Assembly: GCF_003946335.1 (NCBI RefSeq)
Contig: NZ_RHNX01000013.1
Coordinates: 1-64,000, forward strand
DNA length: 64,000 bases
From: Levilactobacillus fujinensis
GTDB lineage: Bacteria; Bacillota; Bacilli; Lactobacillales; Lactobacillaceae
Direction: 5' to 3'
Part shown: positions 30,190 through 48,440 of the stretch, piece by piece
Numbering within the stretch: the first letter of the stretch is position 1
How the letters are laid out: each line of letters begins with the position of its first letter
Program-made: the position numbers and the translations under genes
The notes under the pieces: generated by a model
Seen by the model: only the letters and a program-made list of their open reading frames with translations
Told to the model about the DNA's origin: nothing
Databases searched by the model: none

Positions 30190-31923
30190 TTAAACCAACT
30201 GCTCCTCAACATACTGCCGGTACAGCGGGTGCGTCGCAATCAAGCTCTGGTGCGTGCCAGAACCGGTGACGGCGCCTTTTTCGATGAAGAAGATGGTGTC
30301 AGCGTTCTTGACCGTAGCGAGGCGGTGGGCAACGATAATGATGGTCTTGGTCTGTTGTAGGCGTTCGATGGCATCTTCAATCGACTGTTCCGACGCACTG
30401 TCTAGGCTGGCCGTGGCCTCATCGAGAATGATGATCGGCGCTGGTCGTAGGAAGGCCCGGGCAATCATCAATCGCTGGATTTGACCACCAGACAAGTTTT
30501 GGGCCTGTTCGGCGAGTTCTGTGTCCAAACCGGCGGGCAAATCGTTGACGAAATCCAAGGCCGCGGCGGATGCCAGTGCCTGGTTGATCGTGTCATCGTC
30601 CGGGGTGGACGTCAGCCCGAAGACCAGGTTGTCACGAATCGTGCCAAATAGCATTGACGTTTCCTGTGAGACATAGGAGATGGACGCGCGCCACTGTGGC
30701 AAGGGAATGTCTTGCACGTTGCGGCCGGCGTAGGTGATGGTCCCGCTGTCCAAATGGTAAAAGCGCTCAATCAGGCTAAGAATCGTGGATTTTCCACCAC
30801 CACTGGGGCCAACGAACGCGGTCGTTTTCCGCGGTGCAATCGTCAGAGATAAGTCGTTGATGGTCGGGTCATTGCCAGTCTGGTAGCTAAAGTTCACGTG
30901 GTCGAAGGTGATGGCCGATGAGGTCGCGGGCACGTCGGCACTGAGCGTAGTGGTTGCTTCACCGGATTCATCGAGCAGTTCGGTCAGCGTTTGGGCCGCA
31001 CCGTTAGCAGCTCTGAATTCGGTTAGCGTCGTGCCCACGTTAGCAATCGGGGTGAGAATTTGGAAAACGTAGATGAGAAATGAGGTCAAGGTACCAATCG
31101 TGATGGCTCCACGCGAGACCATAGCCCCACCGGCGATAAAGACGAAGAAGATCGTCCCCATGAGAATGGTGAATTCAATAGGGTCAATCAAGGCGTTGAG
31201 CAACGTAATGCGAAGATTAGTCCGATATAACTGGTGAATCCGTTGCGTCAGGATTTTGATCATTGCGGGTTCGGCGTCAGAGGTTTTAATAAGTCGAATC
31301 TCGGCGATACTTTGTTGTAAGTCGGCATTGTATTTACCGAGTTGATTTTGGGTTTTATGGTATAGGCTAACCTGTTTCTTAGAAATAGGCGCAATGACCG
31401 CGCCCATCAAGCCTAAGGCCCCAATAATAATTGCCGTTAGGAGGGGACTGATGGTAAATAGAATGATCACCGATCCAACCGTTAGAAGCAGGCCGGAAAC
31501 CAGCGTGCTAACGTTGCCACTGATCAGGTCATTGATTTTTTCTGTGTCACTGCTCACGTGGCTAGCGACTTCGGCGGACCGGTGACTGTCGAAAAAGGGA
31601 ATCGGTAGCGTGACGATGTGCGCCGAAACGTTACTTCGGAGCTGACTAACGATGCGTTGACCAGCCACGCCCAAGACATAGCCGCCACCCATGTCAAAGA
31701 CGGTGGAGCCAATCAGCATGGCGACGATCAAAATAACGCTATGCGCCGAAAAATGTGTCTTAAAACTATCGACAAACGTCCGGACTTCCAGCGGGAGGAT
31801 TAGTGAGAAGGCTACCCCACAAATCGTGAGTAAGATACCACCGAAAAATAAGAATTTAGGGAAATCAATTTGATCAAATAGGGTCATGACGTTACTGCGT
31901 CGTTTTGCCTGAGTCATCAGCAT
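30190..31923 (-). CDS. ABC exporter with fused membrane and ATPase domains (MsbA/LmrA-like)
   Basis: A 577-residue half-transporter expected to act as a dimer. The six-helix membrane domain covers about residues 20-310. The nucleotide-binding domain has Walker A GPSGGGKST, signature LSGGQIQRL and Walker B IIILDEATASLD, then the switch His in VAHRLAT. AAGGAG lies 4 bp from the first ATG and 10 bp from a second (31917), so the exact start is uncertain. It is monocistronic and convergent with the island operon. Family members export drugs, lipids or peptides; the substrate is unknown. Confidence 0.9.
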   Translation of the reverse strand: MLMTQAKRRSNVMTLFDQIDFPKFLFFGGILLTICGVAFSLILPLEVRTFVDSFKTHFSAHSVILIVAMLIGSTVFDMGGGYVLGVAGQRIVSQLRSNVSAHIVTLPIPFFDSHRSAEVASHVSSDTEKINDLISGNVSTLVSGLLLTVGSVIILFTISPLLTAIIIGALGLMGAVIAPISKKQVSLYHKTQNQLGKYNADLQQSIAEIRLIKTSDAEPAMIKILTQRIHQLYRTNLRITLLNALIDPIEFTILMGTIFFVFIAGGAMVSRGAITIGTLTSFLIYVFQILTPIANVGTTLTEFRAANGAAQTLTELLDESGEATTTLSADVPATSSAITFDHVNFSYQTGNDPTINDLSLTIAPRKTTAFVGPSGGGKSTILSLIERFYHLDSGTITYAGRNVQDIPLPQWRASISYVSQETSMLFGTIRDNLVFGLTSTPDDDTINQALASAAALDFVNDLPAGLDTELAEQAQNLSGGQIQRLMIARAFLRPAPIIILDEATASLDSASEQSIEDAIERLQQTKTIIIVAHRLATVKNADTIFFIEKGAVTGSGTHQSLIATHPLYRQYVEEQLV

Positions 31924-37115: not shown

Positions 37116-39017
37116 TTAGTTCGTCGCCAACTGTTGGGCAACTGGCTTGGGACTCTTAGCAATGCTGGGATGGTATCCAATCAGACGCATCGCATTGAAG
37201 ATGACGATCAGGATGGAAGCCTCGTGGACGAACATCCCGCTGGCCATGTAGATGTAACCGTAGACCAGGCCAATCAGTAGGAAGATAACGACGCCAATGG
37301 CAATCGTGATGTTTTCCTTGGTGTTGGCAGAGGTCTTCTTGGCAAGGCCGACCGCGTGATTCAAGGCGGTAAAGCTGGATTGCATCAGGACCACGTCGGC
37401 CGTTTCGATGGCGACGTCGGTCCCACCACCCATGGCGATACCAACGCTGGCAGTGGCTAGGGAAGGACTATCGTTAATGCCATCGCCAACGAAGGCGACT
37501 TTGCGACCCATGTCTTGGAACTTTTTAACGAAGGTAACCTTGTCGGCTGGCAGTAAGTCAGCGTGAACTTCATCGATGCCCAGCGATTCCGCAACCGCTT
37601 GGGCAGTGGCCTGGTTATCACCAGTTAACATAACGAGGTGCTTGATACCTTGGCGTTTCAAGGCAGCTAAGGCGCCCGGAACTTCTGGCCGAACCGTATC
37701 TGCAACACCTAGGATGAAGGCTAAGGCACCTTGGTACCCAACGAGGACGGTGGATTGACCTTCGTCTTGCATGTGATGCAGGTCAGTGAGCTGTTCGGCG
37801 GTCAAATTGATGCCGTTATCTTGCAGCAAAGCCGCGTTGCCGACGTAGAGGTCGTGATCGGCCCATTTGCCGACCATGCCGCGGCCCTTGATGGTTTCCG
37901 TCTCAATGGTAGCGGCGTCGTCCTTGATGTGGGCGGCAAGATTGGTAGTGATGGCTTGTGCTAAGGGATGATCGGAAGTCTTTTCAATTTGAGCAACACC
38001 GGCCAATAAACTTTGGTCATCGGTGTAAGTCTGCATGTCAGCGACGGTCATTTTACCCGTGGTCAACGTCCCGGTCTTGTCGAAGACGATGGTGTCGACC
38101 TTGGCGAGACTTTCGACCACGTCGCCACCCTTGATCAGGATGCCGTTCTTGGCGCCGTTACCGATACCGGCAACGTTAGAGACGGGAGCACCAATAACCA
38201 GGGCTCCAGGGCAACCAAGAACCAGGACGGTGATGGCCAAACGGAGGTCGCGGGAGAAAACGAAGACTAGAATGGCGATGATTAGGACGGCTGGCGTGTA
38301 GTATTGGGCAAATTTATCAATAAATTTTTCGGCGGGGGACTTGGTATCTTGGGCTTCTTCGACCAGTTCGATAATCTTAGAGAAGGTCGTTTCGTCCCCG
38401 ACTTGGGTGGCTTCAATCTGTAAGGTGCCACTTTCGACCATGGCACCGGAGAAAACACCGTCGCCGTCAGCCTTGTTGACGGGACGCGATTCACCGGTAA
38501 TGGAGGCTTCGTTGACGTAACCAGTACCGTCGATGACTTTACCGTCGACAGGAACTTGACCACCGGCCTTGACTAAGACCACGTTGCCTTCTTCCAGATC
38601 GTCCACGTCGACTTCTTCGGTCGTACCATCGTCCCCGACGAGGAGGGCGGTTGTTGGGGCCATTTCGGTTAGGGATTGGATAGCGCCCCGCGTCTTAGCG
38701 AGCGTCTTTTGTTCAAGGTAAGAACCGAAGAGAAAGAGGAAGGTCACAATGGCAGATTCTTCAAATTCCCCGATAGCAAACGCCCCGATAACGGCGATAC
38801 CAACTAACAATTCGATACTGAAAACTTTCGCTTTGAGCGCGCTGATGGCCCGAAGAATGATGGGGGCAGCGGCGATGACGGAAGCGATGATCCAGGCCAC
38901 GTCGGTAACATAAGAAATGTGGGTGAACCAGGTGTTAAGGAAGCCGACGATGATGAGACCGGCTGACCAGAAGGTGATTGGATTTGTATGTGCGTAGATA
39001 TAACGTTGAAGTGCCAT
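37116..39017 (-). CDS. P1B-type heavy-metal-translocating ATPase with CPG motif
   Basis: A 633-residue membrane pump. It starts directly at the membrane domain, with no N-terminal HMA domain. The actuator motif TGES is at 174-177, the phosphorylated Asp is D313 in DKTGTLTTG, and the GDGINDSPSLA hinge is present. The ion-path motif in helix 6 reads GCPGALVIG (residues 268-276), i.e. CPG instead of CPC. The C-terminal helix has HEASILIVIFNAMRL, resembling the HEGG...LN segment of Zn/Cd pumps. Metal specificity is open; Cd/Zn/Co or Mn are possible. The promoter carries an FNR-type box, as does the HMA-Dps operon. Confidence 0.9.
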   Translation of the reverse strand: MALQRYIYAHTNPITFWSAGLIIVGFLNTWFTHISYVTDVAWIIASVIAAAPIILRAISALKAKVFSIELLVGIAVIGAFAIGEFEESAIVTFLFLFGSYLEQKTLAKTRGAIQSLTEMAPTTALLVGDDGTTEEVDVDDLEEGNVVLVKAGGQVPVDGKVIDGTGYVNEASITGESRPVNKADGDGVFSGAMVESGTLQIEATQVGDETTFSKIIELVEEAQDTKSPAEKFIDKFAQYYTPAVLIIAILVFVFSRDLRLAITVLVLGCPGALVIGAPVSNVAGIGNGAKNGILIKGGDVVESLAKVDTIVFDKTGTLTTGKMTVADMQTYTDDQSLLAGVAQIEKTSDHPLAQAITTNLAAHIKDDAATIETETIKGRGMVGKWADHDLYVGNAALLQDNGINLTAEQLTDLHHMQDEGQSTVLVGYQGALAFILGVADTVRPEVPGALAALKRQGIKHLVMLTGDNQATAQAVAESLGIDEVHADLLPADKVTFVKKFQDMGRKVAFVGDGINDSPSLATASVGIAMGGGTDVAIETADVVLMQSSFTALNHAVGLAKKTSANTKENITIAIGVVIFLLIGLVYGYIYMASGMFVHEASILIVIFNAMRLIGYHPSIAKSPKPVAQQLATN

Positions 39018-39082: not shown

Positions 39083-39127
39083 ATTATGCCTTGGGCCAGC
39101 AGAAATTAACTTGATGCGAATCAAGTT
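39083..39127 (-). promoter_or_regulatory. FNR-type box with class II promoter geometry (metal ATPase)
   Basis: TTGATGCGAATCAA (39111-39124) is a perfect TTGAT-N4-ATCAA box, extended to AACTTGAT...ATCAAGTT. On the minus strand the -10 hexamer CATAAT (39083-39088) follows after exactly 22 bp, which centres the box at -41.5. Confidence 0.75.
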
Positions 39128-39419
39128 GGCGAAATTAACGTTATTTTTTTACAAGTTAGTGCAGAGAGTCGGCAACCACGGCCGGTTAAAGACGGCTGCT
39201 GGTGAGAACGACATGCTATGGCGATATCGCCACAGTTTGCTTGGCTACAACACTAATCTATGAATAAGACCTATCTATCAATGATCAAAGCTCCTTAGAC
39301 TCGTAGGTTACCAGCCGAATTTTCGGAGTAGTGGTCTATGATGACTGAGGATGAAAATTAGACTGTATTTATATTCGAATTAAAGTTCTTTTTGATTCAT
39401 ATCTGAGTATATTTGTAGT
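39128..39419. other. Intergenic region before the DinJ/MazF-like module
   Basis: No gene is supported between the ATPase promoter and the antitoxin promoter. A perfect 14-bp palindrome TGGCGATATCGCCA lies at 39219-39232 with no obvious gene to serve. Confidence 0.35.
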
Positions 39420-39433
39420 AGTATAATGATACT
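39420..39433 (+). promoter_or_regulatory. Candidate operator over the antitoxin -10 box
   Basis: AGTATAATGATACT is an inverted repeat (AGTAT-N4-ATACT) containing the TATAAT hexamer at 39422-39427. Another AGTAT half-site lies at 39406-39410. Autoregulation by the DinJ-like antitoxin is inferred. Confidence 0.5.
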
Positions 39434-39448
39434 TGGAGGTGGAAGGTT

Positions 39449-39739
39449 ATGGAAGCTAAGGAGCATGCTAAGAAGAAAGTTCAAATTAATATCGACAGAG
39501 AATTAGCTGATGAAGCTGAAACGGTTTTTGAAGATATCGGGCTAAATCAAACAAGTGCATTGACTGCTTTTTATAAAAAGGTTGTAGCAGAGGGAGGAAT
39601 GCCGTTTGATTTAAAGCAAACACCAGAGCAACGCGCAAATCGTCGACTACGCGGAGCTTTGAAAGGTATTCCTGTCCAAAAGTTAGAGAATCGCAAACAA
39701 GTGGAAGCGTGGTTTGAAGATGAATCCCAGGACTATTAA
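39449..39739 (+). CDS. RelB/DinJ-family antitoxin
   Basis: A 96-residue protein. The N-terminal KKKVQINIDRELADEAETVFEDIGLNQTSALTAFYKKVV segment is the ribbon-helix-helix DNA-binding and dimerisation region of DinJ-type antitoxins, and GGMPFDL follows as in the family. The C-terminal half (EQRANRRLRGALKG...) probably wraps the toxin. GGAGGTGG precedes the ATG. The downstream toxin gene overlaps its 3' end by 20 bp. Confidence 0.85.
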   Translation: MEAKEHAKKKVQINIDRELADEAETVFEDIGLNQTSALTAFYKKVVAEGGMPFDLKQTPEQRANRRLRGALKGIPVQKLENRKQVEAWFEDESQDY

Positions 39740-40073
39740 ATCGCGAGACAGTATTAGTGTTTATATTAGTTTTATTGTTGGTCGTGAGGGTAAGCGACGG
39801 CCAATTTTGGTACTCTCCGTTCACGGAGAAGAGCTCTATTTTTATCAGCTAACGAGTCAGTACAAAAGTAAATCAAAAAAAATCAAAAGTCAGTATTACC
39901 CCTTGAAAAATTGGCAGGAAGTCGGTTTAAAAAAAAAAACCTATGTTGATATCGGACTTATTAGAAGTGTGAATAGGTTGGATTTGGATAAAATTACCCG
40001 GATTGGCCATTTAACGGTGACTGATCAAGATGGATTGGCCGACTTTATTTTGAGATTTAAAATGAATATGTAG
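39720..40073 (+). CDS. MazF/PemK-like toxin
   Basis: About 117 residues. The core GREGKRRPILVLSVHGEELYFYQLTSQ resembles the GKRPVLVVS segment of MazF/PemK endoribonucleases, and IGHLTVTDQDGLADFIL resembles their C-terminal helix region. The start at 39720 (or TTG 39714) overlaps the antitoxin gene, which indicates translational coupling. If the family call is right, it is an mRNA-cleaving toxin neutralised by the DinJ-type partner, a non-canonical pairing since DinJ usually partners YafQ/RelE-fold toxins. Confidence 0.65.
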   Translation: MNPRTIKSRDSISVYISFIVGREGKRRPILVLSVHGEELYFYQLTSQYKSKSKKIKSQYYPLKNWQEVGLKKKTYVDIGLIRSVNRLDLDKITRIGHLTVTDQDGLADFILRFKMNM

Positions 40074-40576
40074 ACTAACAGGACGTACCAAAATTTACAA
40101 GGCTGCTGAAAAAGTTTGCAGTTTTAGAAAGAAAGCCTAAATAGTCAGGAGCATGGGTCCTTACCGATGTTGCTGACTACTTGAGCAGCCAGTGGGAATT
40201 TATTGAAATGACCATTTCGCTTTTCAGCAATCTCGAATTTACAGGTGGGCCTTTTAGGATGCTACTGTGCAAGACTTGGTAATCTATTTGTTTGATTATT
40301 TTCTACATAGAAGCGACATATTATATGCCCTGGCGTGACGTTGTTTAAAGAGCTTAATTGCCTTTTTCTTGCGTACTTGGCTTCAGTGAAATTTAGCATA
40401 ATCCGTTGGCGCATGAGAACTAACAGGTATATTTTATCGAGATTTCTTTGAAGTTTGACCAAAACGGCAATAAACCGTGTTTTTTTTAAAATATTGGAAG
40501 CTTTGTCACCCGTCGTTCATTGTATGAATGGTCAATTCATGCTATTCTAGCCTCAATCAGAGAGGGAGAATATAAG
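40074..40576. other. Intergenic region of about 500 bp
   Basis: I see no intact gene on either strand. Near its end is a plausible promoter for the following gene (TTGTAT at 40520-40525, 17-bp spacer, TATTCT at 40543-40548). The spacer contains an inverted repeat ATGAAT-N5-ATTCAT at 40524-40540. The rest may be decayed mobile or repeat sequence. Confidence 0.4.
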
Positions 40577-41395
40577 ATGAAAAAACCACTTAAACTTTTA
40601 TTGACACTAGCCTTGGTTACTGTCGGGGCAGTCGCATTACCAGTCACGGCGCAAGCCAAAACGACGTATCAGATCACTTCTAAGTTTGTTGACGACGTGC
40701 CTTATACGACGAATATGAAGACAGTGAAGTCCGGCGGCTATATCTGGAATGCGCGCCACACGAAGAAGCTGCACAATTTGAAAAATTATCCGTACACGCG
40801 ATGGAACGTGACCAATATTGTCACGAAAAAGCAGAATGGGAAGGCCGTTAGCTATTATTACGAGCTGACCAGTAAGACCAATCCTAAGGTGAAGGGTATT
40901 GCCTGGAGCAAGTACTTCACGAAGATCATTGCCCAGAACCCGGCGTCGTTTAGTTCCGATGCGGCTTATCTGAAATACATTCAAACGGATCCGTCGCAAC
41001 GCCTGACACGGGCGATTCTGAAGCTGTACCCGAATGTCACGGTGAGTGCAAAATTGTCGGCGTATGCGAATACGGGGGCTTATAGCTATATTCAGAAGCC
41101 GGTGGGGTTTAAGAACGTAATCAACATCAGCTATATTCAAAATTCCCAGCCGGCAATTGGCCTCTGGAGTACCATGGGTCAACCCGTGGCACCGCGTATC
41201 AAGACGATGACGGCACAATTAGATGCAATGGGGTATACGGCGGCTAAACGGGCATCGTTTACCGGAAATATTGGGATCTTTATCGCAGATGAAGCGAATG
41301 ATGGGGACAATTCCCAGGACGGTCTGCCAACGCGCGACGAGTCAGAGGGGCAAATGACCAGTTATGGGATGGTGCTGGCGACGCCGACGAAGTAG
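40577..41395 (+). CDS. Secreted protein of unknown function
   Basis: A 272-residue exported protein. A signal peptide ends near AQA-KT (MKKPLKLLLTLALVTVGAVALPVTAQA is the region). The first mature part contains GGYIWNARHTKKLHNLKNYP, which resembles short surface-layer-associated repeat segments of lactobacilli. The rest is unassigned, and the acidic ADEANDGDNSQDGLPTRDES precedes the end. The start at 40577 is chosen over an upstream in-frame ATG because GGGAG and the signal peptide fit it. Its last 116 bp overlap a convergent frame at 41280-41789. Confidence 0.78.
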   Translation: MKKPLKLLLTLALVTVGAVALPVTAQAKTTYQITSKFVDDVPYTTNMKTVKSGGYIWNARHTKKLHNLKNYPYTRWNVTNIVTKKQNGKAVSYYYELTSKTNPKVKGIAWSKYFTKIIAQNPASFSSDAAYLKYIQTDPSQRLTRAILKLYPNVTVSAKLSAYANTGAYSYIQKPVGFKNVINISYIQNSQPAIGLWSTMGQPVAPRIKTMTAQLDAMGYTAAKRASFTGNIGIFIADEANDGDNSQDGLPTRDESEGQMTSYGMVLATPTK

Positions 41396-41789
41396 CTGGC
41401 AGATGAAACCTAACTGGTGAGACGTGTTCGGCGTTATTTCGTGCGACTTGAAACGCATGTATGATTGGAAGAAAATGAGCCAGTTCCGCTGAATCCCAGC
41501 GATAGATCGTAAAGATGGCTAGGTCTGGTACCGCTCCCGGGTTAAACATCTCTGTCGGAGAAACCTCGTGTTCGTAGGCAGTGTGGAGGTCAAATCGGGC
41601 GGAAATTTGACCCAGGGCGTCTGCCATTTGAAGAATAATGCCGGCGCCCCGAACGTCGACGGACAAATCAGTCGCAGTTGGGTTGTCGTCGTAGAAAGTG
41701 AGGACGGGTCGGCCATTAGCCTGAGGACTGAAGGAGAACAACTTGAAGATCAGATAATTCTGGAGTAGTTGGAAATCGAGCGTTGGCAT
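41280..41789 (-). CDS. Hypothetical protein overlapping the convergent secreted-protein gene
   Basis: A 169-codon frame with AAAGGA about 9 bp before the ATG. The N-terminal ~120 residues look protein-like (LQNYLIFKLFSFSPQANGRPVLTFYDDNPTATDLSVDV is its start region). The C-terminal ~40 codons overlap the plus-strand gene in antisense and have an unusual His/Pro/Arg composition, suggesting that an original stop was lost. I do not recognise the family. It is probably a real but 3'-altered gene. Confidence 0.5.
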   Translation of the reverse strand: MPTLDFQLLQNYLIFKLFSFSPQANGRPVLTFYDDNPTATDLSVDVRGAGIILQMADALGQISARFDLHTAYEHEVSPTEMFNPGAVPDLAIFTIYRWDSAELAHFLPIIHAFQVARNNAEHVSPVRFHLPATSSASPAPSHNWSFAPLTRRALADRPGNCPHHSLHLR

Positions 41790-41843
41790 GGGCAGCCGTC
41801 CTTTCGCTAAAGCGTTATTCTTAATACCATACCAAACGGATGT

Positions 41844-41895
41844 AAAAATCCCGTAAAGACAGCGTTAATTTTCACTGCCTTTACGGGATTTTTTA
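41844..41895. terminator. Terminator downstream of the GH31 gene
   Basis: AAAATCCCGTAAAG and CTTTACGGGATTTT arms pair around an A/T-rich loop. It separates the GH31 gene from the hypothetical gene at 41789. Confidence 0.85.
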
Positions 41896-41935
41896 ATTGC
41901 TGGTTAAACTGTTAAAGAACTTGCTTAATTAATAT

Positions 41936-44239
41936 CTAAGCGTGGTAACTCTGGCTAGCCGCATCGTAAGTCAACGTGACGGACTTGGCTGGCAGGTCGA
42001 CTGTAATCGTCTGGTAGACCGGCTTGAAGCCACTATGAGTCAAGGTGACAGTAGCGTCACCATCTTTCACAGTGACCAAGTAGCGGTTGAACTCACCATC
42101 TTCGTAGTTGAAGTCACTGCCATTGTCTTGGTAGTGTTCGTAGCTGGCGTTTTGACCAAATGCCTTGAAGGTCATGGTCGTGTCAGGCGTGTCGGCAACG
42201 TGGCTGACTTCCTGTCCCCATGGTAATAAGGTATCCTTCTTGATAAACAGTGGCAATTTCGCCAATGGTGCGTCGACAAGGATGTCTTGGTTGCCAGGAT
42301 ATTCGCGGTTGTTCCAGAAGTCGATCCAGTTACCAGCTGGCAAGTAAACGGTCCGGTTGACCTTGGACTTTTGCACGATGGGGGCGACTAAGACGTTGTC
42401 ACCAACCATGAATTCGTCGTCAAGATCCCGCACACGAGCGTCCTCTGGGTAGTTTAAAACCAAGGGCCGCATGATTGGCAGGCCGTTCATCGATTCTTGC
42501 GCGAACAGATCGTAGAGGTAAGGAATGAAGCGGTAACGCAACTTCAGATACTTCCGGTAAATGGACAACGTGGGTTCGCCGAAACTCCATGGCTCCTGAT
42601 GACGCGTCCCCATAGCCGCGTGATTCCGTAGCAAGGGACTGAAGATAGCGGCTTCGATCCAACGGGTCAAGAGTTCAGCTGAGGTATCGGAAGCAAATCC
42701 GCCGATGTCGGTCCCAACGAAGCTAAAGCCACTCAGACCGAGGTTGCAAAGTTGTGGAATCATCATTTGAATGTGGGGCCACATGCTACGGTTATCCCCA
42801 GTCCAAACGGTCGAATACTTTTGGGTACCAGCGTAGGCTGCCCGGGTGATGACGTAGGGCCGTTTGCCTTGTTGCTCTTTCAGTCCCGTATAGGTTGCCT
42901 TAGCCATGTTGTGGCCGTAGACGTTGTGCATCTTCTTGTGCGTTGATGGGGTGTCTTGGTCGTTGAAGACCACGTCGTCTGGGATCTCACCCTCAAACGT
43001 GGCGGGTTCATTCATATCGATCCAGACACCACCGACGCCCATATCGGTCAAAAACTTGTTGTTATTGGCCCACCATTTGCGGACGTCGGGCCGACCGAAG
43101 TCAGGGAAGGCGGAGTCACCGGGCCAAACTTTGTTGATGTAGACCTTACCGGCTGGCGTTTTGACAAAGTAGTTATTCTTGATGCCTTCGGCGTACTTGT
43201 CGTAGTCGGGGTCCTGCTTAACACCGGGGTCGATGATCGGAATGACCTTGATGCCTTGGCCCTTTAAGCTGCTGACAAATTTCTTAGGATCGGCGTACTT
43301 AGCCTTGTCCCAGGTGAAGACACGGTAGCCGCGCATGTAATCGACGTCAAAGTGAATGGCGTCACAGGGAAGGTCGTTTTTCTTCATGGTGTCGGCAATC
43401 TCTTGGACTTCATCTTCGCTGGCACTGTAGCCCCAACGAGATTGTTGGTAACCCAACGTCCACTTTTGCGGCAACGGCGTGCGGCCGGTCAGGTAGGTGT
43501 AGTTGGTGACCACGTCCTTCAACGTTTGACCGCCAATGATGTAGTAGTCGAGGTTCCCGTCCACGGCGGAGTAGAAGTAATAGTGGTCGCTTTCCTTACC
43601 CATGTCGAAGTGGCTCTTGTAGGTGTTATCGAAGAACAGACCATAGGGATGACCGTTCTTCAAGCCCAGCATGACGGGGATGGACTTGTAAATGTTGGGT
43701 AGAATTTCCAACTGGGGAGACGGATTATCCACGTTCCAGTTGTCGTATTCGAAGCCCCGTTTGTCGAGGTAGCCGGTCTTGTCACCCAGGCCGTAGAGGT
43801 GTTCGTCGGCTGCTAGGGTCTTAACGACTTCATAGTAGCTGGAGTTGGCCTTGACGGTGGACTTAGTGACACTATGGCCTTCAGCTTCGACTAACCGTTC
43901 GTGAACCTTGTCGACCCCTTTGTCGAGGAGGGCCCGTTCGCCACGGAAATCAGTGACCAGAGCATTGCCGTTGGCGTCGTAAACGTCGATGTGGCGTTCT
44001 GCGTCAAGGTTAATGGTCAACGCACTAGTGGTTAATTCGTAGTGATCGCCGGCATCGGTCAGTTTGAAATCGGTCGCGGTCTGTTTGTTGCCTTCGATGG
44101 CGTAGGAATTTCCGTCGTTACCGCGGTATTCGAACACTCGGACGATGGCAGGCGTCAGGACGGTCAACTGGAGATCGTGGTCGGGATAGTGAAACGTAAC
44201 GGTTTGATCTTTTTGTTGATAAGTTGGTAAAGCAGTCAT
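41936..44239 (-). CDS. Alpha-glucosidase, glycoside hydrolase family 31
   Basis: A 767-residue cytoplasmic enzyme. An N-terminal galactose-mutarotase-like domain precedes the TIM barrel. The nucleophile Asp lies in GVWIDMNEPATF, and the acid/base region follows in the SGFSFVGTDIGGF block. C-terminal beta-domains complete the fold. AAGGAGAT precedes the ATG. It lies downstream of the MalT-like transporter on the same strand (208-bp gap) and is probably controlled with it by the divergent LacI regulator. Hydrolysis of maltose/isomaltose-type oligosaccharides is likely. Confidence 0.93.
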   Translation of the reverse strand: MTALPTYQQKDQTVTFHYPDHDLQLTVLTPAIVRVFEYRGNDGNSYAIEGNKQTATDFKLTDAGDHYELTTSALTINLDAERHIDVYDANGNALVTDFRGERALLDKGVDKVHERLVEAEGHSVTKSTVKANSSYYEVVKTLAADEHLYGLGDKTGYLDKRGFEYDNWNVDNPSPQLEILPNIYKSIPVMLGLKNGHPYGLFFDNTYKSHFDMGKESDHYYFYSAVDGNLDYYIIGGQTLKDVVTNYTYLTGRTPLPQKWTLGYQQSRWGYSASEDEVQEIADTMKKNDLPCDAIHFDVDYMRGYRVFTWDKAKYADPKKFVSSLKGQGIKVIPIIDPGVKQDPDYDKYAEGIKNNYFVKTPAGKVYINKVWPGDSAFPDFGRPDVRKWWANNNKFLTDMGVGGVWIDMNEPATFEGEIPDDVVFNDQDTPSTHKKMHNVYGHNMAKATYTGLKEQQGKRPYVITRAAYAGTQKYSTVWTGDNRSMWPHIQMMIPQLCNLGLSGFSFVGTDIGGFASDTSAELLTRWIEAAIFSPLLRNHAAMGTRHQEPWSFGEPTLSIYRKYLKLRYRFIPYLYDLFAQESMNGLPIMRPLVLNYPEDARVRDLDDEFMVGDNVLVAPIVQKSKVNRTVYLPAGNWIDFWNNREYPGNQDILVDAPLAKLPLFIKKDTLLPWGQEVSHVADTPDTTMTFKAFGQNASYEHYQDNGSDFNYEDGEFNRYLVTVKDGDATVTLTHSGFKPVYQTITVDLPAKSVTLTYDAASQSYHA

Positions 44240-44447
44240 AACAAGGTATCTCCTTTTTCTCTTACTCTTCTCTATTATAGAACTAGTTTGAAATTTTGTT
44301 TTTGGTGCCGGTAGTCGGTTCTGTCGTTTTATCGGTCGACAGGTATGGGCTGGTAAGCTGGGGGCGAAACTTGAAACCGCGCAAGTGCCGAGTCTTCAAG
44401 CCTGGCCTTCCGCTGAGCTAGAGCGCGACCGTTTTTAAGCAATACAA
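44240..44447 (-). other. GH31-transporter spacer with a dispersed-repeat copy
   Basis: On the minus strand AGCCCATACCTGTCGACCGA (ending near 44351) resembles the repeats at 800-829 and 36986-37015. No gene is seen. Confidence 0.35.
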
Positions 44448-45872
44448 CTAGGCAGCAGCCTTATCAGATAAGTCCTTTTGTGGCTTGTCGGCTTTGATCA
44501 CACTGATGGCAACGACGGCGATCAACATGGAGATACCGGCAACTAACATCATGCCGGGCATGGACTTGCCGACCATCCGGAACACCAGGAAGCTGGCAAC
44601 GGAAGCGATAATTTGTGGCAAGCAGATGGTCCCATTGAAGATTCCGATGTAAGAACCTTCATTTGACCCGTCCAGAGATGACGTGAAGATGTTGAAGGGT
44701 TCCACGTGAACCGTGAAGAAGCCGATACCGATCAGACAGAATGGCAGAATCAATAGGTATTGATTGTGGATGAAGAAGACCCAAATTAAGCCAACGGCGA
44801 AGCACGCAATTCCGAAGCGGTACCAGAATTTCCGCTTGAGTGGGTTGGTATGTGACAAGACCAAGAAGCCATAAAGTACGGCGGCCATGGACTGGATGAA
44901 GGTTAAGATCCCATACCAGTTACCGGCAGCTTGATAGCCAGCGGAAGCGGCATTAGCCGTGTGCCAAACGTTTTGAGCGATGGCTCCGGTCGTGTAGGTC
45001 CACATGTATTGAATCCCAATCCAAGCGAACATTTGAACAACGGCGACTTCCCATAAGGCTTTAGGTGCTTCCTTGATCAATTTCCAAAGTGGCTTGGTAT
45101 TCTTGTGTGCTTGAGGGTCAATGTGGTGATAGAGCGCGTAAGTGTCGGGGTCGTATTCCTTGACCGTGTGAATGGTGTAGGCGGAAATACCTAACAGAAT
45201 AGCCGCACCAATATAGAAGGCTAAGCGAACGGACAAAGGAACGACACCTTTTTTAGCGGTGTTGGCGACACCGAAGAAAGTCAGGATGAATGGTAACAAG
45301 GTAGCGAGGACACCACCAAGATTACTGAAGGCTTGTTGCCATGACCAGGCTTTATCCTTTTGCTTTTCGTTGACCATGTCCCCGATAATCATCCGGAAGG
45401 GTTGCATACAGATATTGCTGGACAGGTCCATGAAGAGAATGGCGATGGCCCCGAAGACCAAGGCCGCCATGGAGGCGTAACCGAAGCCAAATGAGCCGGC
45501 GTTAGGCAGCAAGATCATGACTAAAGCGGCAACGGGTGCACTGAATAACAGGTAAGGCATCCGGCGGCCAAAACGGTTCCAGGTCCGGTCGGAATATTTC
45601 CCAACTAACGGTTGAACGATCAAGCCGGCCAGTGGGGGAAGAATGAAGAACAGTCCCAGATTGGTTGGGTTAGCACCGATGGTCTGGAAGATTCGACTCA
45701 TCTGTGAGGATTGCAGTGAGAAAGCCATGTTGACCCCACAGAAACCGAACGTAATGGCAAATAGTGTTTTCAATGGTAAATTAGGCAGGGAGTTCGCAAG
45801 TTGCTTGGTCTTAGATGGGGCGGCCGCAGTGACTTTGTGATTTCCCAGCGAGTTCGTTGCTGGTTGATTCAT
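44448..45872 (-). CDS. MFS maltose/oligosaccharide symporter (MalT-like)
   Basis: A 474-residue inner-membrane protein with about 12 helices. The GLIVQPLVGKYSDRTWNRFGRRMPYLL segment is the conserved loop 2-3 of the SLC45/GPH-like MFS maltose transporters of lactobacilli. It faces the LacI gene, with two operators between them. Downstream is the GH31 gene. The context supports uptake of maltose or a related alpha-glucoside that GH31 cleaves inside the cell. Confidence 0.88.
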   Translation of the reverse strand: MNQPATNSLGNHKVTAAAPSKTKQLANSLPNLPLKTLFAITFGFCGVNMAFSLQSSQMSRIFQTIGANPTNLGLFFILPPLAGLIVQPLVGKYSDRTWNRFGRRMPYLLFSAPVAALVMILLPNAGSFGFGYASMAALVFGAIAILFMDLSSNICMQPFRMIIGDMVNEKQKDKAWSWQQAFSNLGGVLATLLPFILTFFGVANTAKKGVVPLSVRLAFYIGAAILLGISAYTIHTVKEYDPDTYALYHHIDPQAHKNTKPLWKLIKEAPKALWEVAVVQMFAWIGIQYMWTYTTGAIAQNVWHTANAASAGYQAAGNWYGILTFIQSMAAVLYGFLVLSHTNPLKRKFWYRFGIACFAVGLIWVFFIHNQYLLILPFCLIGIGFFTVHVEPFNIFTSSLDGSNEGSYIGIFNGTICLPQIIASVASFLVFRMVGKSMPGMMLVAGISMLIAVVAISVIKADKPQKDLSDKAAA

Positions 45873-45939
45873 GATAAGGACATCTCCTTGAATTTAAATA
45901 ATTGCGATTTCTTTCAACACCATCATACTAGCACGTTAC

Positions 45940-45951
45940 GTAAACGTTTAC
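45940..45951. promoter_or_regulatory. LacI-type operator 1
   Basis: GTAAACGTTTAC is a perfect palindrome in the transporter/lacI divergent region. On the minus strand a TATGAT hexamer (45922-45927) lies just downstream, so binding would block transporter transcription. Confidence 0.78.
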
Positions 45952-45971
45952 AATGCCTATTTCAAAGGAGT

Positions 45972-45983
45972 GTAAACGTTTAC
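45972..45983. promoter_or_regulatory. LacI-type operator 2
   Basis: A second exact GTAAACGTTTAC, centred 32 bp from the first, about three helical turns, so both sites face the same side of the DNA. It also fits the cre consensus, so CcpA could bind too. Confidence 0.75.
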
Positions 45984-46051
45984 GTTTTTAGTTAGGAAAA
46001 TCGGGGCATTAAGGCTATAATGAGATTATATTGAAGTTAGGTGGGGGACGT

Positions 46052-47023
46052 ATGAAACCAACCATTAAGGATATTGCCGCCGAATCGGGCGTATCAATTG
46101 CCACCGTTTCACGAGTGCTGAGCCATAAAACGGGAACGTATAGTGAAAAAACACAGGCTAAAATTTTAGCCGTGGCCAAGCGGCTGGGCTACCGAAAAAA
46201 TTCAACCGCCGTGGAATTGGTTAAGAAAAAAGCGGCGGTTATTGCGCTGATCATCAACGCAACGCCAACCAACTTCTCCACACAGATCATCGACGGAATT
46301 CAGCGCCGCGCCAGTGAATTGGGGCAAGGCGTGATTATTTTGTATGCGGGCAATCGTAATGCTGAACTGCAGCACCAAGCAATCGTGACGGCGCTGGAGC
46401 GGGCGGTGTCGGGAATCTTACTGGCAGCGATTGAGCCGGATACGGAAGACTTGACGCTACTAAAGGAATCGCACGTACCGTTCTGCTTCGTCTCAGTTTA
46501 TTTGGGTACCGATAAGGTCCTATCCGTCAGTTCGGATAACGAAAAGTTGGCGGCGACCACGACGGACTACCTACTCGATCGCGGCCACACGCACATTGGC
46601 CTCGCGGGGGTCGACACCTACCATACGGGGAGTCAGCGAATTATCGGCTACCGGCGGGCGTTGGCAGCGCACGGAATTCAGGAAACGACGATCAAATACG
46701 GCGATTACAGTTACGAATCAGGTCGTCAGTTGTTAGCAGAATTTCTGCCATTAAAAGTGACGGCCATCATTGCGGCCAGTGACATGGTTGCGGCCGGCCT
46801 ACTGAATGCAGCGCAGGAGGCAGGTATCGCGGTACCAGAGCAGCTGTCGTTGATCAGCATCGATGGAACCGACATTTGTCGCATCACCACGCCAGCGCTA
46901 ACCAGTCTGACACAAGACTTCTATCAGATTGGTGCGCAGAGTGTGGACCGGGTGATGGGCGAAAAGGCAGCGACGTTTGTGCCGGTTAAGCTGGTGGCGC
47001 GTGGCAGTGTCAAAAGACTGTGA
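46052..47023 (+). CDS. LacI-family repressor of the alpha-glucoside locus
   Basis: A 323-residue regulator. The N-terminal HTH is TIKDIAAESGVSIATVSRVLSHKTG with the hinge helix following near KRLGYRKN. The periplasmic-binding-protein-like effector domain runs to the end (DMVAAGLLNAAQEAGIAVPEQLSLISIDG is typical). The ATG at 46052 has GGGGG upstream; a TTG at 46031 is less likely. A TATAAT hexamer lies at 46016-46021. It is divergent from the MalT-like gene, with two operators between, so it probably represses both. Confidence 0.92.
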   Translation: MKPTIKDIAAESGVSIATVSRVLSHKTGTYSEKTQAKILAVAKRLGYRKNSTAVELVKKKAAVIALIINATPTNFSTQIIDGIQRRASELGQGVIILYAGNRNAELQHQAIVTALERAVSGILLAAIEPDTEDLTLLKESHVPFCFVSVYLGTDKVLSVSSDNEKLAATTTDYLLDRGHTHIGLAGVDTYHTGSQRIIGYRRALAAHGIQETTIKYGDYSYESGRQLLAEFLPLKVTAIIAASDMVAAGLLNAAQEAGIAVPEQLSLISIDGTDICRITTPALTSLTQDFYQIGAQSVDRVMGEKAATFVPVKLVARGSVKRL

Positions 47024-47060
47024 TAAAAGGCGATTAGCCGGTGAGTATTAAGGCTGTTAA

Positions 47061-47100
47061 GCGGAGCTAGTTGCCTTTTAGCACCACGTTTCGGCCATTT
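47061..47100 (+). repeat. Dispersed intergenic repeat, short copy
   Basis: GCGGAGCTAGTTGCC...ACGTTTCGGCCAT closely matches 49769-49807. It lies just after the lacI stop codon and before its terminator. Confidence 0.6.
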
Positions 47101-47114
47101 AAAATGAGAACTAA

Positions 47115-47158
47115 AACACAAAGGACCGCGACAATTCCGCCGCGGTCCCTTGTTGTGT
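47115..47158 (+). terminator. Probable terminator of the lacI gene
   Basis: AAGGACCGCG (47121-47130) pairs with CGCGGTCCCTT with flanking ACACAA/TTGTTGTGT. The T-run is weak. Confidence 0.65.
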
Positions 47159-47263
47159 AAAGATTGTAAAGGGTAAGTATAGATTCAGTTTTCTCGAACA
47201 TCCGTTTGCTTTTGCATGCTAAACTAAGAAAACAGCAAAATAGAAATAAGTATCATTGCCGGG

Positions 47264-47443
47264 TCACTTGTCGTCAGGTGTCTTCCGATTGAAAATTAAA
47301 ACGATGGCACTGACAAAGAAAACGCCAGCCAAAACGTAAAGCAGAAGCGTATACGCTGGTAGAAAATTGGCGGCCACGGTGGCTAGCAATAATGAAAAAA
47401 CAAATAAACAGCCGACTCCGATTCGGCGAAGTTGTGTATTCAT
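47264..47443 (-). CDS. Small two-helix membrane protein
   Basis: A 59-residue protein with two hydrophobic segments (GCLFVFSLLLATVAANFL and LLLYVLAGVFFVSAIVLIF) and a charged C-terminus. The start at 47443 has GGGGTG upstream. It lies downstream of dps but after that gene's terminator, so it has its own promoter or partial readthrough. The function is unknown. Confidence 0.65.
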   Translation of the reverse strand: MNTQLRRIGVGCLFVFSLLLATVAANFLPAYTLLLYVLAGVFFVSAIVLIFNRKTPDDK

Positions 47444-47475
47444 TGAAATCACCCCTAAATTTAGTATAGGGGATA

Positions 47476-47517
47476 TGAAAAGGGAACGCCAGCACCTCGC
47501 AGTGCGCTGACGTTCCC
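47476..47517 (-). terminator. Terminator of the HMA-dps operon
   Basis: GGGAACG-CAGC arms pair with GCTG-CGTTCCC (47482-47517), with a T-rich tail on the minus strand. Confidence 0.8.
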
Positions 47518-47530
47518 TCAAAGTTAAAGA

Positions 47531-48091
47531 TTAGTCCTCGTCATCATCGTCTTCTTCGTCCAGACCGTCGCGGGCATCGTTGCCCAAGACAGCTTGGAGT
47601 TCACGGATGATGTGATTGTTTGTGCCCCGCAGGCCAACCAAGAAGCTGGCTAAGGCTGGACGGTCTTCCTTTTCGGCGAGCTTGATGGCCCGGTCGATAA
47701 AGAGATTGTGCGTATCTGCATCACGAACCAACTCGCTGATTTGGTCTTCGGCGCTGAGGTACTTCTTGTCGCCGCCTTCTTGCAGCATAGTGTAGTCGTG
47801 GAATTCCTTAGTGGTTGTGGAGACCGTTTCGCCCTCGTCCAAGAGGTGTTCACCCAAGGCGTCGAATTGATCGCGGTAAGTGTCAATGTAGTCGCTGAGT
47901 AAGCTGCGCACGCTCAAGGCTAAGGGGCCTTTGACGGACCAGCAAACCTGGTGGAACTTCACGATGGAAATGTGTAGGTTGGCCAGAATGTGGTTGGTCA
48001 TGGCACCGGCTGTTGGGACGTGGTGGTCGTGTTCAGTCTGGGCTTGTTCAGCAGCATAACGGTCTTCAATAGTAGCGGTAGTTGTAGTCAT
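47531..48091 (-). CDS. dps: Dps-family ferritin-like protein
   Basis: A 186-residue mini-ferritin that would store iron and protect DNA or the cell from peroxide. The ferroxidase region is visible as KFHQVCWSVKGP followed by DQFDALGEHLLDEGE, the two Dps signatures. The C-terminus is a run of Asp/Glu (DEEDDDDED), which argues against direct DNA binding by a basic tail. AAAGGAAG precedes the ATG. It follows the HMA gene by 31 bp in one operon under an FNR-type box. Confidence 0.9.
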   Translation of the reverse strand: MTTTTATIEDRYAAEQAQTEHDHHVPTAGAMTNHILANLHISIVKFHQVCWSVKGPLALSVRSLLSDYIDTYRDQFDALGEHLLDEGETVSTTTKEFHDYTMLQEGGDKKYLSAEDQISELVRDADTHNLFIDRAIKLAEKEDRPALASFLVGLRGTNNHIIRELQAVLGNDARDGLDEEDDDDED

Positions 48092-48122
48092 TGGATGAAC
48101 TTCCTTTCAGGTCTTAAGCGGC

Positions 48123-48350
48123 TTAGAGGGCTTTAACTTTAGAACTCTTAACGGTGTAGCCGAGGTCAGTGACCGTGTCGGCTAAGCTTTCGGCAGTGAC
48201 AGTTGCGTCATCGAATTCGGCTTTGATCTTGCTGGCGTTGAACAGAACCTTAACGTCCTTCACACCATCTTTTTTACTGAGCGCTCCCTCAATCTTGGTC
48301 ATGCAAGATGGGCAGGTCAGATCGTCTAATTTCATGGTTACTTTACTCAT
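48123..48350 (-). CDS. HMA-domain metal-binding protein
   Basis: A 75-residue ferredoxin-like heavy-metal-associated domain. The metal site is TCPSCMTKIE, a CxxC motif near residue 13, with the expected beta-alpha-beta spacing. It resembles CopZ-like chaperones, but the local context is dps rather than a copper ATPase. It could serve the P1B ATPase at 37116, which lacks its own HMA domain and shares its promoter architecture. GAGGAGG precedes the ATG. Confidence 0.88.
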   Translation of the reverse strand: MSKVTMKLDDLTCPSCMTKIEGALSKKDGVKDVKVLFNASKIKAEFDDATVTAESLADTVTDLGYTVKSSKVKAL

Positions 48351-48378
48351 AATTAAAACCTCCTCAGGTTTTGCGTTT

Positions 48379-48394
48379 GTCTTGATTACAAGAC
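48379..48394. promoter_or_regulatory. Second palindrome near the HMA-dps transcription start
   Basis: GTCTTGATTACAAGAC (GTCTTG-N4-CAAGAC) lies just downstream of the -10 hexamer, where a bound repressor would block initiation. The cognate protein is unknown. Confidence 0.45.
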
Positions 48395-48396
48395 CT

Positions 48397-48440
48397 AGTA
48401 TACGGGTCAGCTCTCGAAAAGAACTTGACTCAAATCAAGT
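48397..48440 (-). promoter_or_regulatory. FNR-type box with class II promoter geometry (HMA-dps operon)
   Basis: TTGACTCAAATCAA (48425-48438), inside ACTTGA-N6-TCAAGT, is one base from TTGAT-N4-ATCAA. On the minus strand TATACT (48397-48402) follows after exactly 22 bp, as in the ATPase promoter. Confidence 0.72.

Follow-up and report, generated by a model that had tools for sequence, protein, structure and literature searches.

Lactobacillus casei FLP and Lactococcus lactis FlpA/FlpB are FNR-like proteins of lactic acid bacteria; the former reportedly works through a disulfide switch between two cysteines, and mutation of flp in L. lactis is said to make the cells zinc-poor and sensitive to peroxide. 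In the first 64,000 nucleotides of contig NZ_RHNX01000013.1 of the food lactobacillus Levilactobacillus fujinensis (RefSeq assembly GCF_003946335.1), the stretch analysed here and hereafter called the window, the promoter of a heavy-metal ATPase and that of an HMA-dps operon carry the same FNR-type box at the same distance from the -10 hexamer. With good confidence, we propose that both boxes are the operators of one dedicated Crp/Fnr-type class II activator, a relative of FLP and FlpA/FlpB named Flp. Control of this kind (Crp/Fnr class II) is already known: in box sequence, in the Glu, Ser and Arg of the recognition helix and in the position of the box over the -35 region, the system resembles the class II promoters of Escherichia coli FNR (FF-41.5 type, TTGATNNNNATCAA; accessible sections of PMC4505428). 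The main contacts of FNR with its box are Glu209, Ser212 and Arg213, and FNR has four cluster cysteines, in contrast to the two of Flp (same sections of PMC4505428). The targets also differ, being metal and ferritin genes here and genes of anaerobic metabolism in E. coli. Furthermore, FlpS of Streptococcus suis is likewise an FNR-like activator in a Gram-positive bacterium, although it activates arginine deiminase genes, unlike the system in the window (accessible text of PMC5039431).

An ATPase-HMA-dps cassette with repeated boxes was not found described for FLP or FlpA/FlpB, and a literature search, with the primary FLP and FlpA papers outside its reach, returned no description of this regulon. 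In the accessible text of PMC3616900 FlpA is placed under metal homeostasis, and the FlpA tables of that paper may contain part of the regulon. Flp is widespread in the family, yet little literature was found on its targets in lactobacilli; a small regulon whose site is exact and whose promoter geometry is fixed is now directly testable. The elements of the window are as follows.

39111-39124, strand not assigned: Flp/FNR-type box of the ATPase promoter, forward-strand letters TTGATGCGAATCAA, coding strand TTGATTCGCATCAA
39083-39088, minus strand: -10 hexamer CATAAT of the ATPase promoter
48425-48438, strand not assigned: Flp/FNR-type box of the HMA-dps promoter, forward-strand letters TTGACTCAAATCAA, coding strand TTGATTTGAGTCAA
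48397-48402, minus strand: -10 hexamer TATACT of the HMA-dps promoter
37116-39017, minus strand: P1B heavy-metal ATPase without HMA domain, 633 amino acids, C-P-G motif (TIGR01525, 566.7 bits)
48123-48350, minus strand: HMA-domain metal-binding protein, 75 amino acids (PF00403)
47531-48091, minus strand: Dps/ferritin-like protein, 186 amino acids, second gene of the HMA operon (PF00210)

An initial annotation of this DNA had reported both boxes, both -10 hexamers and two equal gaps of 22 bp, and on direct reading all of these positions proved exact, the gaps spanning 39089-39110 and 48403-48424; judged from the predicted -10, the box would be centred at -41.5 in both promoters. The observation was not only correct but understated. 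The palindrome of both boxes extends beyond the version first given (coding strand, ACTTGATTCGCATCAAGT and ACTTGATTTGAGTCAAGT).

The conservation of this arrangement was assessed in the best 80 of 131 ATPase loci, whose ATPases are 57-97% identical to that of the window. The set has 29 Levilactobacillus-like rows and covers 16 genera plus some Lactobacillus rows, including Pediococcus, Lactiplantibacillus, Lentilactobacillus, Loigolactobacillus, Companilactobacillus, Weissella and others, with one Sporolactobacillus; identical promoters were counted once, which left 72 or 73 distinct ones. An exact TTGA-N6-TCAA was found upstream of the ATPase within 260 bp in 79 of the 80 loci and, with the distance taken from the start of the tblastn match, within 300 bp in all 80. 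Every distinct ATPase promoter (72/72) has a YANNNT hexamer at offset 22 from the box, the runner-up among offsets 10-35 being 27 (18/72), and across the 29 Levilactobacillus rows the box, its flanks and the -10 are almost invariant while the intervening bases drift. Further, the 80 named loci contain 72 first HMA copies that are preceded by 250 bp or more of sequence; 70 of these possess the box, the 22-bp spacing and the -10, and the other two (L135 and L144) have no box within 250 bp. Of the distinct HMA promoters, 81 out of 84 show offset 22, and 12 of all 102 HMA genes, tandem copies and genomes beyond the named ones included, are without a box within 250 bp. As a control, the complete unit occurred within 300 bp upstream of only one of 1040 other open reading frames (ORFs; at least 120 amino acids) of the same loci. 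The same ORF-based procedure scored 69/83 ATPase, 9/68 Dps and 11/19 Flp ORFs, values lowered by the automatic assignment of start codons, by the 300-bp limit and by genes situated within operons. The initial annotation had stated that a lack of conservation upstream of orthologous genes would speak against its proposal, and the boxes turned out to be conserved.

Could the boxes nevertheless be fortuitous? The window holds four bare TTGAN6TCAA sites, about 1.9 (1.91) being expected by chance, and at least four were found in 12 of 100 shuffles, which is not significant; complete box/22/YANNNT units number two, compared with 0.18 on average over 60 first-order Markov simulations, at least one of which also reached the maximum of two, a result that is only suggestive when taken alone. 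These window counts are weak, and the question is settled by the conservation at orthologues: with the fixed spacing kept at all 80 ATPase genes and at 70 of 72 HMA genes, in contrast to 1 of 1040 other ORFs, an origin of both boxes and their equal spacing by chance appears vanishingly improbable and may be taken as already refuted.

In addition to the box, the promoters share a poor -35 region. The best -35 match at spacers of 16-18 reached at most 2/6 in 55 of 73 distinct promoters, the figure for one shuffle being 35 of 73. This is how a class II activated promoter is built: the -10 is good, the -35 is poor, and a Crp/Fnr-type palindrome covers the -35 region at a fixed 22 bp from the -10. 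The class II activation by a Crp/Fnr (Flp-like) protein put forward in the initial annotation is thus supported at the sequence level by conservation, poor -35 regions, linked Crp/Fnr genes and FNR contact residues, the last two of which are described below.

A search of the genome for a Crp/Fnr gene, which the initial annotation had advised, found one on another contig.

Contig C71 of the L. fujinensis genome (G000), 30479-31177, outside the window: Flp, Crp/Fnr-type protein (PF00325, PF13545, PF00027)

This gene gave the single PF00325 match of the genome and the single full-length PF13545 match, five partial PF13545 matches being found elsewhere. Two proteins of the genome have the cNMP_binding domain (PF00027), Flp and one on contig C27, and the FNR-type E..SR helix is present in Flp only. 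In an alignment and tree of 74 of 75 extracted frames, from which one interrupted frame of 72 residues was left out, the residues matching Glu209, Ser212 and Arg213 of FNR are conserved in 74/74, 73/74 and 74/74 Flps, respectively. The L. fujinensis protein contains two cysteines, at positions 17 and 115, both invariant in the 74 homologues, and no other cysteine column is widely common to them. Thus, it does not have the four N-terminal cluster cysteines of FNR proper. The Flp class is defined by a Crp/Fnr fold with a pair of cysteines as in L. casei FLP, the first at the N-terminus and the second where the sensor domain ends, and the protein belongs to it by its PF00027 and PF13545 matches and by this pair, which all 74 homologues share. 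A predicted structure derived from 13 linked Flps was discarded (mean pLDDT 74.2, pTM 0.50; other four models 48-52).

Because of its contact residues, its linkage to the targets in relatives, and the missing contact Glu in the C27 protein, this genome offers no better candidate than Flp, and this two-cysteine Crp/Fnr protein is most likely the regulator of both boxes. We also considered that Flp might act as a repressor, or that a cross-acting Crp/Fnr paralogue might be involved, instead of class II activation by Flp. Three congeners (G053, G015 and G135; loci L187, L189 and L191) do have a second Flp-like gene with 38-39% identity, adjacent to a different, AT-rich box that, upstream of the gene, is either oppositely oriented or lacks the spacing, and the L. 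fujinensis genome has a second cNMP_binding protein on C27. A site similar to this box (TTGATAATTATCAA; L020, C18:31970) is also present in the L. fujinensis genome. However, no second Flp-like gene was found in the L. fujinensis genome at the 38-39% identity level; the C27 protein reads T-P-V-S-L-S-R at the recognition helix, with Val in place of the contact Glu, a substitution associated with a different base in the accessible part of PMC2610375; and a box lying over the -35 region of promoters without a -35 points to activation. We therefore consider a repressor or paralogue very unlikely.

The distribution of Flp in the family is consistent with its candidacy. Flp homologues occur in 99 of 151 family genomes at E<=0.001, and at stricter cut-offs (Flp, E<1e-20; ATPase, E<=1e-180) Flp and the ATPase were found together in 76 genomes, Flp alone in 18, the ATPase alone in 2 and neither in 55 (Fisher p=9e-23, a test which ignores the relatedness of the genomes). 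In one ATPase-only exception (L160) the ATPase and HMA genes both have boxes and lie near a contig end, and the other exception is a genome 65% complete. In 37 of 78 family genomes a Flp homologue is found no more than 15 kb from the ATPase, frequently with the gene order ATPase, HMA, Dps, Flp and a box for each operon, and in the Lactiplantibacillus loci read flp is divergent from HMA-dps with a box in between. A box of their own at the same spacing was found for 8 of 28 flp genes standing apart from HMA and Dps and for 12 of 36 linked flp genes.

This linkage also bears on the idea that the box is the operator of another regulator, for example a metal sensor of the ArsR, MerR or CopY type, its likeness to the FNR box being incidental. 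Targets such as these are usually controlled by metal sensors of that kind; no Crp/Fnr gene lies beside the targets in Levilactobacillus, and two of the plasmids read have a metal-sensitive (CsoR-type) regulator gene close to the cassette. On the other hand, the sequence matches the FNR box of the accessible sections of PMC4505428, the spacing is constant at 22 bp over an absent -35, and the recurrent neighbour is a Crp/Fnr gene; accordingly, a regulator of another family seems very unlikely.

Other sites of the genome may add to the regulon. From 138 TTGAN6TCAA sites, 33 distinct ones were checked with their flanks for a -10 at 22 bp, and besides the two of the window, YANNNT occurred at this distance at L028 and L008; the latter (CACTAT) was taken as chance.

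L028, 1501-1542 (G000:C93:33360): third box/22-bp/-10 unit, preceding a large membrane protein

The membrane protein has ABC2_membrane_3 and DUF3533 matches above the cut-off, and in our reading is YhgE/Pip-like. The stretch that contains it was matched in all 35 genomes of the genus, mainly in the coding part. Of the 30 genus loci returned, a box stands no more than 420 bp upstream in 26, and in 24 it lies at 22 bp from a -10; box cores and distances vary, and four loci lack a box. The existence of this third promoter, which is absent from the initial annotation, supports a genuine, if small, regulon. Five further CTTGAN6TCAAG sites were found in the genome, four inside ORFs and one intergenic without the 22-bp spacing.

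Several observations weigh against Flp as the dedicated activator of these promoters. In Levilactobacillus, flp is unlinked to the targets and its own box was found in 0/6 cases, so that the link to the promoters rests on the relatives, the recognition helix and elimination. The Levilactobacillus Flp forms a long branch of the tree, flagged by the program as a possibly false join, and groups with linked as well as unlinked Flps. Further, one of the five partial PF13545 matches (C52) exceeds the cut-off, the flank check covers 33 of the 138 box sites of the genome, and the 18 genomes with Flp and without the ATPase at the cut-off used imply that Flp must serve other uses too.

From box, spacing, conservation, linkage and contact residues, we infer binding, activation, signal and metal as follows. 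Flp would bind the ACTTGAT-N4-ATCAAGT palindrome through its FNR-like recognition helix (E196, S199 and R200) and, placed about 41.5 bp upstream of the transcription start, would exert class II activation at promoters whose -10 is good and whose -35 is unusable. The targets of Flp would be the metal-export ATPase, the HMA metal-binding protein together with the Dps ferritin and, in Levilactobacillus, the YhgE/Pip-like membrane protein. The switch is probably thiol-based, by a disulfide or by the binding of a thiophilic metal, because the only two cysteines of Flp are invariant in 74/74 homologues, and the likeliest input would be a thiol switch responding to oxidation or to thiophilic metals. 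The common site and layout in relatives and plasmids suggest that one small activator may jointly induce a pump for metal, a protein that binds metal and a ferritin that protects DNA.

The ATPase was found in 411 of 72,556 plasmid records (E<=1e-150), 390 of the 411 with less than 60% identity, in hosts including Enterococcus, Lactococcus, Leuconostoc and Listeria. In the six plasmid stretches read, a box at the spacing precedes the ATPase in all six, and a Carnobacterium stretch has four such boxes, which precede dps, flp, HMA and the ATPase. Five of the six carry an annotated Crp/Fnr gene; the sixth, from L. plantarum, has an IS30 element upstream of HMA and a gene table that is possibly incomplete. 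In a Listeria plasmid gene table, Dps, Crp/Fnr, Lgt, a copper chaperone and a P-type ATPase stand near one another (accessible part of PMC5663981). Tentatively, and with slightly more doubt than trust, we suggest a mobile Gram-positive metal-defence cassette made up of the C-P-G ATPase, the HMA protein, Dps, their own two-cysteine Crp/Fnr activator and up to four class II boxes, in which the Flp thiol switch would sense metal or peroxide and raise export and sequestration together. If true, a Crp/Fnr-based metal or peroxide defence would stand beside those of the MerR, ArsR, CsoR and PerR types, and with the ATPase borne on plasmids, the signal and the metal bear on the metal tolerance of food and environmental strains.

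Regarding the ATPase itself, P1B-4 ATPases as a rule have an S-P-C motif, no HMA domain and an HEG-S/T motif in the last helix. The window's protein shows some resemblance to P1B-4 ATPases (CoaT, PDB 7qbz/7qc0; PmtA Fe2+ pumps), the nearest solved chain being 7qbz. The domain search returned no HMA match in the window's ATPase, and its last helix has an HE-S motif that may correspond to theirs (HEASIL in 71 of the 80 ATPases, HEGSIL in 3 and other HE-x-SI in 6). Its metal-site motif is C-P-G, as in 80/80 orthologues, unlike the S-P-C of CoaT, the aligned P1B-4 pump, and the C-P-C of the aligned copper pump; the motif is thus unusual compared with the pumps aligned here and departs from P1B-4, and no named subclass for C-P-G pumps was found in the literature search or in the accessible part of the review PMC10654040. 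Among the best 80 of 131 loci, the closest named ATPases, 97% identical, are those of L. koreensis, L. andaensis and L. enshiensis.

The initial annotation had also supposed that the HMA protein works for the ATPase, which has no HMA domain of its own; this idea is plausible only, and helped only by the constant ATPase/HMA/dps neighbourhood in other genera. In many of these, HMA-dps directly follows the ATPase and has its own box, and in Levilactobacillus loci that hold both operons they lie about 1-9 kb apart. In six Levilactobacillus-like loci (L072, L075, L076, L077, L081 and L094), a tandem second HMA copy is without a box of its own. One identical ATPase promoter stretch was observed in four different genera (L107, L109, L110 and L112), which suggests recent horizontal transfer or a common plasmid. 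Finally, two short overlapping ORFs at 39449-40073 of the window show, by eye, a likeness to a RelB/DinJ-type antitoxin and its partner gene.

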